Assembly (NCBI GenBank): GCA_014323545.1 | Contig: CP058647.1 | Location: forward strand, 1,184,001 to 1,248,000 | DNA from: Hyphobacterium sp. CCMP332 | GTDB taxonomy: Bacteria > Bacteroidota > Bacteroidia > Cytophagales > CCMP332 | DNA length: 64,000 nt | Reading direction: 5' to 3' | Part shown: in pieces, positions 60,433 through 61,175 of the stretch | Numbering within the stretch: position 1 is the first letter of the stretch | Layout: the number at the start of each line of letters is the position of its first letter | The notes under the pieces: model-generated | Told to the model about the DNA's origin: nothing | Database searches by the model: none | The model's input: the letters and a program-made list of their open reading frames with translations, nothing else | Position numbers and translations under genes: made by a program

Positions 60433-60434
60433 AG

Positions 60435-60586
60435 CTGTAGGGGGAGGATTCGAACCTCCAAGAAGTCGTTAGCCCCGAAGCTCAATTTAGCATCTTAAAA
60501 GATCTTAAATTGATCTTACGGAGTTTATCCGAAACTCTTCACCCCCGAGACAGGAGGGCATGTCTGCCTATTTCATCACCCCACAG
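60435..60586 (-). ncRNA. tRNA-like RNA with 8+5 bp acceptor/T helix and very long variable region
   Basis: On the reverse strand a 152-nt structure folds from sequence. Acceptor CTGTGGGG/CCCTACAG (8 bp, one G-T); a 3-bp D stem ATG/CAT with a GG-containing loop; anticodon arm CCCTC-CTGTCTC-GGGGG; T arm GGAGG-TTCGAAT-CCTCC. Between anticodon arm and T arm are about 80 nt with two perfect hairpins (GAGTTT/AAACTC; TCAATTTA/TAAATTGA). The D and T arms resemble type II tRNA. The apparent anticodon would be GUC, with an unusual U37. The 8/5 helix recalls tRNA-Sec or allo-tRNA. CCA is not encoded. No tag-peptide frame argues against tmRNA. The identity is unresolved. Confidence 0.65.
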
Positions 60587-60710
60587 TATGAATGTAAAAG
60601 TAATAAATACACAAACTAATTATATATTATTTATCTTATTAGCGTAATATATACAGTATATTTAAATTTAATTGTATTAATTTACTAATTATATAATTCT
60701 TTAATTAATT

Positions 60711-61175
60711 ATGGATGATTTTTACAGAATCGATAATACGGATAAGGCTATTTTGAATATTCTTATGAAGGATGCCCGCAAACCCTACAGTGAAATAGCC
60801 AGGCTCGTCCATGTTTCTCCAGGAACAGTTCATGTGAGGATGCACAAAATGGAAGAAGCGGGAATCGTAAAGGACTCAAAGCTCTTTATTGACTATGCCA
60901 AATTGGGTATAGATATTACTTCTTTTATCGGTATCCATCTTGAAAAAAGCGCTTTATTTAAGAATGTTAAAAACGATCTTGAAAAAGTCGAGGAAATCAC
61001 CAATCTATTTTACACCACGGGTATTTACGGATTACTCGCTTTAATCCGATGCAGGGACACGGCCCATCTCCGGGAAATTGTACAGGACAAAATTCAGTCT
61101 ATAAAAGGTATTCAGAGAACAGAAACAATGATCAGTTTGGAAGAAAGTATATCCAGGCCATATTTACTTCGCTGA
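60711..61175 (+). CDS. Lrp/AsnC-family transcriptional regulator
   Basis: 154 residues: a helix-turn-helix (KPYSEIARLVHVSPGTVHVRMHKMEEAGIV) and an RAM/AsnC ligand domain (DITSFIGIHLEKSALFKN to GIYGLLALIRCRDTAHLREI). Members bind amino acids and form octamers. The 110 bp upstream are extremely AT-rich with several TATA-like runs. It converges on the HTTM gene with a 12-bp overlap of 3' ends. A target could be the amino-acid dehydrogenase gene two genes away; inference only. Confidence 0.92.
   Translation: MDDFYRIDNTDKAILNILMKDARKPYSEIARLVHVSPGTVHVRMHKMEEAGIVKDSKLFIDYAKLGIDITSFIGIHLEKSALFKNVKNDLEKVEEITNLFYTTGIYGLLALIRCRDTAHLREIVQDKIQSIKGIQRTETMISLEESISRPYLLR

Follow-up and report, generated by a model that had tools for sequence, protein, structure and literature searches.

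A tRNA-shaped RNA that faces an AsnC-type regulator gene in Bacteroidota and is also carried by phages looks like an undescribed regulatory tRNA mimic

The window (the whole stretch of DNA analysed, 64,000 nt) carries, at 60434..60586 on the minus strand, a 153-nt tRNA-like RNA that is matched by our covariance model R1 with E = 4.8e-36. Divergent from it, at 60711..61175 on the plus strand, lies the gene for a 154-aa transcriptional regulator of the Lrp/AsnC family, AsnC clade, and the two are separated by a shared intergenic region (60587..60710) where divergent promoters are expected from TAnnTTTG boxes in homologous regions. An earlier note on this DNA, made from its letters alone, had described all four tRNA arms, and these are indeed present, running on the minus strand from base -1 at 60586 and U1 at 60585 to G73 at 60435, with an encoded C74 at 60434. 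A plus-strand reading of the element was dropped, since the T arm and all relatives point to the minus strand. The folding energy of that strand is -54.7 kcal/mol, with z = -3.2 against shuffles.

The element has the anatomy of a class-II tRNA, with a 7-bp acceptor stem, a 3-bp D stem, an Asp-like anticodon loop, a long branched variable arm, G73 and C74 (all coordinates that follow are on the minus strand). In the acceptor stem 60579..60585 (TGTGGGG) pairs with 60436..60442 (CCCTACA), which pair counts in relatives bear out, with 100% of pairs formed and five of the seven showing compensatory changes; U8 and G9 follow. The D arm (60560..60576) combines a 3-bp stem (60574-60576/60560-60562; ATG/CAT, TTG/CAA or ACG/CGT in relatives) with a Leu-like D loop, and the anticodon arm (60542..60558), recognised from the sequence and from relatives, has a 5-bp stem including U30.G40 and the loop CUGUCUC (60547-60553), with GUC at 60549-60551. 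The extended variable arm, delimited by the sequence and by covariation in relatives, spans 60462..60540, and the T arm, supported by sequence and relatives alike, is GGAGG-TTCGAAT-CCTCC (60443..60459). Invariant columns (the GG of the D loop, the TTCGA of the T loop) and covarying stems together make up a tRNA cloverleaf. The note was also right about the CTGTCTC loop, the length of the D stem (3 bp), the long and structured variable arm, and U37.

One part of that description has to be revised. An eighth acceptor pair, C-1:G73, is formed in the window copy as had been claimed, but it is not general, being possible in about half of copies: base -1 is C in 98, T in 57 and A in 40 of 195 relatives. 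With base -1 free to vary, only 7 bp of the acceptor helix are conserved, and acceptor and T stems together give the ordinary 12 bp (7 + 5), so the 13-bp helix put forward as a hallmark of tRNA-Sec and allo-tRNAs does not stand. A selenocysteine-type tRNA or allo-tRNA with such a helix could draw on the long variable arm, on G73 and on the C-1:G73 pair where it can form, but is extremely improbable: the alignment contradicts it, showing neither a 13-bp helix (8+5 or 9+4) nor a 12-bp 9+3/8+4 split, the loop reads NUC-Y-C and not UCA, and the D stem has 3 bp.

What did hold was the view of a specialised or regulatory tRNA-like RNA that has a type II body, U37 and a GUC loop resembling that of tRNA-Asp and that matches no standard tRNA, and no ordinary RNA family was found to claim it. 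Rfam returned nothing convincing at 60434-60586 at either gathering or relaxed thresholds, tmRNA model included; ARAGORN, run on the window, calls only one tRNA-Arg elsewhere and misses the element; and the 33 matches to RF00005 in the element's own genome do not include it, as it stays below the gathering threshold. By blastn, relatives turned up in 36 of the 59 related genomes searched, and tandem copies were frequent; R1 was built from 34 relatives. This model leaves a gap between members, which score above about 82 bits, and ordinary tRNAs (about 75-90 nt), which score about 40-63 bits. With it, full-length members were found in about 106 of 148 genomes of the order, and R1 also matched in three further families of the same class and in one family beyond it. 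Among the matches listed from a scan of genome contigs, carriers include Hymenobacter, Dyadobacter, Spirosoma, Algoriphagus, Cyclobacterium, Pontibacter, Flammeovirga and Saprospiraceae.

Comparison with relatives, which had been proposed as a check, shows the arms kept through compensatory changes. Across the 34 relatives 95.2% of helix positions pair, against 86.6% in shuffled alignments and less than 60% in slid controls, with compensatory changes in 19 of 28 pairs; in a 24-sequence subset that bears the apical motif described below and has the variable arm resolved, the figures are 98.2% against 82.4%, with 20 of 34 pairs compensatory and a covariation score of 0.510 against 0.184 in shuffles. 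Judged by these alignments, the tRNA-shaped RNA is real and conserved across relatives. Tandem copies and occurrence in phages (see below) might call to mind a decayed tRNA or an integration-site remnant, but compensatory changes, found in almost all arms and also in the variable arm, contradict this reading, and promoter boxes, a conserved partner gene and full-length copies inside phage arrays speak against it as well, leaving it virtually no chance of being right. The papers searched contain no earlier description of the RNA. It apparently forms a family not described before, for which the comparative support is strong and the support for a mechanism moderate.

A shortened form of the RNA was also seen. 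At one locus (L291:538-615, minus strand) there is a 78-nt version without the long variable arm, with the loop CUAUCUC, the same ACAGC end and a terminator-like hairpin of its own, in a genome that keeps an unlinked AsnC homologue.

U33 is invariant in elongator tRNAs. Among 285 distinct copies of the RNA, position 33 is T, G, C or A and position 37 is T or C, with the proviso that our loop search pattern fixed positions 35-36 and 38 and allowed only T or C at 37; at position 34 each of the four bases is found in some copies. The RNA thus lacks the combination of U33 and a purine at 37 that marks a decoding tRNA, and because U33 is not conserved and 37 is a pyrimidine, it is strongly suggested that the RNA almost certainly reads no codons and should not decode. 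The host genome has an ordinary tRNA-Asp(GUC), from which the RNA loop differs only by A37U (CUGUCAC to CUGUCUC). That the RNA is nevertheless a real decoding tRNA, of an unusual Asp or Ser type, would agree with its canonical D and T loops, the GUC anticodon of most copies, its tRNA-type ends and its presence in phage tRNA arrays; we consider this very unlikely, given the unconserved U33, the pyrimidine at 37 throughout, the free choice among four bases at 34, the normal tRNA-Asp(GUC) already carried by the host and, in one phage (L233), a tRNA-Asp beside the RNA.

The variable arm has a regular order. It opens with a 4-bp stem (GNNG/CNNC); a 4-nt bulge on the 5' side then leads to a stem of 3 bp, followed by the internal loop GAUAAA/CUAA and, at the top, by an apical helix whose sequence varies. 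Many copies have GGxxGACCAC in the apical loop, most commonly 16 nt after GAUAAA, while the window copy has a longer apical helix in place of this motif. Presence of the motif goes together with the base at position 34. We compared 286 distinct loop/arm combinations: G34 is present in every one of the 145 that bear the motif, while 33 of the 141 without it have A, C or U there. In bacterial copies alone the counts with and without G34 are 89/0 when the motif is present and 104/33 when it is absent (P = 2e-8, shared ancestry ignored), and for Y33-G34 they are 89/0 and 83/54 (P = 1e-14, shared ancestry again ignored). For example, of the paralogues at locus L100, the copy with CGATCTC lacks the motif and the copy with CTGTCTC has it. 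As GUC is complementary to GAC, the simplest reading is that the tip of the variable arm docks on the anticodon loop, and such docking is strongly suggested by sequence for a large subset of the family; the exact pairing is inferred, as the paired letters are invariant within the motif class. Pairing of U37 with the apical motif was rejected, since the base preceding GAC varies freely.

The RNA ends like a tRNA gene, and most relatives have a predicted promoter box for it. In all 31 host tRNA genes that were compared, the discriminator is followed by an encoded C74 and almost never by a full CCA, and the same end, G73 plus an encoded C74, is kept in essentially all relatives of the RNA, which suggests tRNA-type 3' maturation. 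TAnnTTTG is the known consensus of the Bacteroidota promoter box; among 83 homologous intergenic regions, 61 carry it on the strand of the RNA, compared with 12.4 in shuffles. No perfect box is present in the intergenic region of the window (60587..60710).

The partner protein contains the AsnC-type HTH and AsnC_trans_reg domains (Pfam) that together define the Lrp/AsnC family, and its best PDB match is 2cg4 (E. coli AsnC; E = 3e-31). At the same time, it lies below the NCBIfam asnC equivalog cut-off, with 151 of 227 bits. An AsnC homologue adjoins the RNA in 84 loci at a median distance of 146 bp, nearly always divergently, and this linkage is seen in several families of the class; in the family outside the class, three tandem RNAs stand beside an AsnC homologue. 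Moreover, the two are distributed alike. In the tally of 148 genomes, which sets aside the one with the 78-nt version, 104 have both, 13 only AsnC, two only the RNA and 28 neither (P = 6e-18, shared ancestry ignored). Eight of the 13 AsnC-only genomes are small genomes of one family with no detectable RNA. Relatives of Algoriphagus and Flammeovirga have RNA and AsnC unlinked, one genus contains a species with both and another with neither (G029, G058), the two searched genomes of the window's own family are without RNA and without AsnC homologue, and in those RNA-lacking families that were tested no relative of AsnC exceeds 42% identity. Weak model matches (7-8 bits) beside AsnC genes in RNA-negative genomes were judged to be noise. 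These patterns of presence and absence indicate that the RNA and the AsnC gene are gained and lost together.

The AsnC gene has a further neighbourhood. In many loci of the Cyclobacteriaceae type (L037, L052, L060, L074, L122 and similar ones) it directly precedes the sufB-sufC-sufD operon on the same strand, and these genes are followed by a fourth conserved gene, probably sufS. This position is a hint that the AsnC-type regulator may also touch Fe-S cluster or cysteine metabolism.

Scanning IMG/VR with a sequence pattern yielded 86 contigs, 85 of which have a member covering all or most of the R1 model at 82-136 bits (one of these is cut off at its 3' end). In most contigs scanned the phage copies stand among phage tRNAs, several with a tmRNA (ARAGORN), and the contigs inspected carry genes for terminase, DNA ligase and phage RNA ligase. 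In annotated phage and plasmid records, blastn gave no match to the RNA, so known isolates supply no annotation. GUC, with U or C before it, is retained in every one of the 61 distinct phage copies. In 43 of 57 distinct motif-bearing phage copies the apical loop holds a perfect palindrome of at least 8 nt, as opposed to about 6% in shuffles and 6 of 69 bacterial copies, and since the palindromes differ widely in sequence, self-complementarity itself seems to be selected. The tips may thereby dimerise the RNA through a kissing contact. Most of the palindromes would equally fit a 3-bp hairpin bearing a self-complementary tetraloop. Where phages have the palindrome, bacterial motif-bearing apical loops (e.g. 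L074, L077, L158) often have a pyrimidine run, TTCTCTT or TTTTCTT.

The phage copies bring in another possible explanation, namely a decoy, whose UGU loop would mimic the anticodons of tRNA-Asp, -Asn, -His and -Tyr and absorb anticodon nucleases or tRNA-guanine transglycosylase as a phage counter-defence. Carriage by many phages, the GUC after U or C in 61 of 61 distinct phage copies and a loop that departs from tRNA-Asp at position 37 only would all suit such a role. On the other hand, in many bacterial copies position 33 is G, C or A and position 34 is A, C or U, and the pairing with AsnC points to metabolism and not to defence, so that we regard the decoy as unlikely.

Two other features were seen in phage loci. 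Some phage copies (L210, L211, L214, L234, L243-L245, L247, L250, L258, L283) have an extra hairpin inserted in the D loop. There is also a second series of phage RNAs, 89-150 nt long, with near-identical tRNA ends (AGTCAGGTGGCG...AGGTTCGAATCCTGTCCTGACTA) around unrelated middles, up to six per locus and 14 distinct copies in all, none of them in bacterial loci (L219:5129-8252, minus strand; L224:4331-5050, plus strand; L279, L280, L285, L227, L268); these may be RNAs capped with tRNA ends.

The explanation we favour, with a probability of roughly one in two, is a tRNA mimic under AsnC control that reads no codons and acts by engaging tRNA-binding machinery. The divergent regulator, being of the amino-acid-responsive AsnC type, would control transcription of the RNA and set its level by an amino acid, Asn or Asp being proposed because of the homology with E. 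coli AsnC. RNase P would cut out the RNA, which would be CCA-tailed like a tRNA, and the mature RNA would then occupy a tRNA-binding partner, its occupancy tuning aminoacylation or translation. Additional copies would come from phages, and in these the palindromic tips may let the RNA dimerise. The likeliest partner would be AspRS, because G73, G34, U35, C36 and C38 are the five strong bacterial Asp determinants, with G10, G1-C72 and G2-C71 as further ones (PMC9976931; PMC6523644). The strong set is present in the window copy, in 61 of 61 distinct phage copies and in most bacterial copies, and the RNA has G2-C71; G10 and G1-C72 are absent, with A10 or U10 and U1-A72 instead. About a quarter of motif-less copies are without G34, and so AspRS recognition cannot hold for all members. 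Moreover, docking, unless it is switched, would hide the anticodon from AspRS, which would count against the AspRS model. The favoured explanation also has against it that the window copy lacks both GGxxGACCAC and a perfect promoter box, that 13 AsnC-positive genomes have no detectable RNA and that two RNA-positive genomes have no AsnC homologue. A more specific version, which we put forward only tentatively, is that this is a new class of regulatory RNA, in which an amino-acid-controlled tRNA shows a self-docked codon-anticodon mimic (the GUC loop on its own GAC) to AspRS or the ribosome, acting as a translation regulator in Bacteroidota, and that phages took over a dimerising form.

In staphylococci, peptidoglycan tRNA-Gly isoacceptors donate their amino acid to a non-ribosomal enzyme. 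The RNA could likewise carry an amino acid to some non-ribosomal reaction after charging by SerRS (or AspRS), AsnC adjusting its supply to demand, and its conserved C74 and tRNA ends do imply a usable 3' end. SerRS recognition has been reported to involve a large variable arm and G73 (PMC7609411; PMC9976931), and the bacterial tRNA-Ser set comprises a large variable region, G73 and G2-C71, and also C72, C11-G24 and G30-C40 (PMC9976931). The first three are present in the RNA, but in place of the others it has A72, U11-A24 and U30.G40. No transferase gene recurs beside the RNA, whose downstream neighbours vary, and phage carriage is hard to account for, which makes the carrier a doubtful alternative to the AsnC-controlled tRNA mimic.

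Standard tools miss a widespread tRNA-shaped RNA that stands opposite an amino-acid-type regulator in many Bacteroidota genomes and is also found within phage tRNA arrays. It offers a defined candidate for a loop-loop contact inside a tRNA, and it would open three questions to experiment: do bacteria employ free tRNA mimics as regulators under amino-acid control, what do local AsnC regulators target outside E. coli, and for what reason do phages carry tRNA-like genes that do not decode? The RNA belongs among the tRNA-like RNAs, has the full set of defining features of no known family, and looks like an undescribed regulatory tRNA mimic.

Comparison with known systems shows which features are shared. 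With bacterial tRNA-Asp (GUC) the RNA has in common the loop CUGUC.C, G73, C38, G2-C71 and the encoded C74, but it has U37 instead of A37, a variable position 33, U1-A72, no G10 and a class II body with a long branched variable arm. With bacterial tRNA-Leu, also class II, it shares its D arm type, AAxUGG(C/T)AGAC with a 3-bp stem, and many of the next-best R1 matches (about 40-63 bits) are probably tRNA-Leu; unlike tRNA-Leu, it has G73 and not A73, and its loop and variable arm are unrelated. The type II body, G73 and, in some copies, a possible C-1:G73 pair are shared with tRNA-Sec and allo-tRNAs, whereas the conserved 13-bp helix and the UCA anticodon are lacking and the loop is predicted to be non-decoding. 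Like tmRNA, it is a tRNA-like RNA, presumably stable, with an inserted domain, found in phage tRNA arrays and sometimes on the same contig; unlike tmRNA, it keeps the D and anticodon arms, no conserved tag-coding frame was seen in the variable arm, Rfam gave no tmRNA match, and ARAGORN called tmRNA only elsewhere on some phage contigs. The kissing loops of the HIV-1 DIS have self-complementary tips, as do the phage copies (GCGCGC, GTGCAC), an analogy only, dimerisation of the phage RNA being predicted. Finally, E. coli asnC and asnA are arranged divergently, and here too an AsnC-clade regulator is transcribed divergently from its likely target, which in this case is an RNA gene and not asparagine synthetase.
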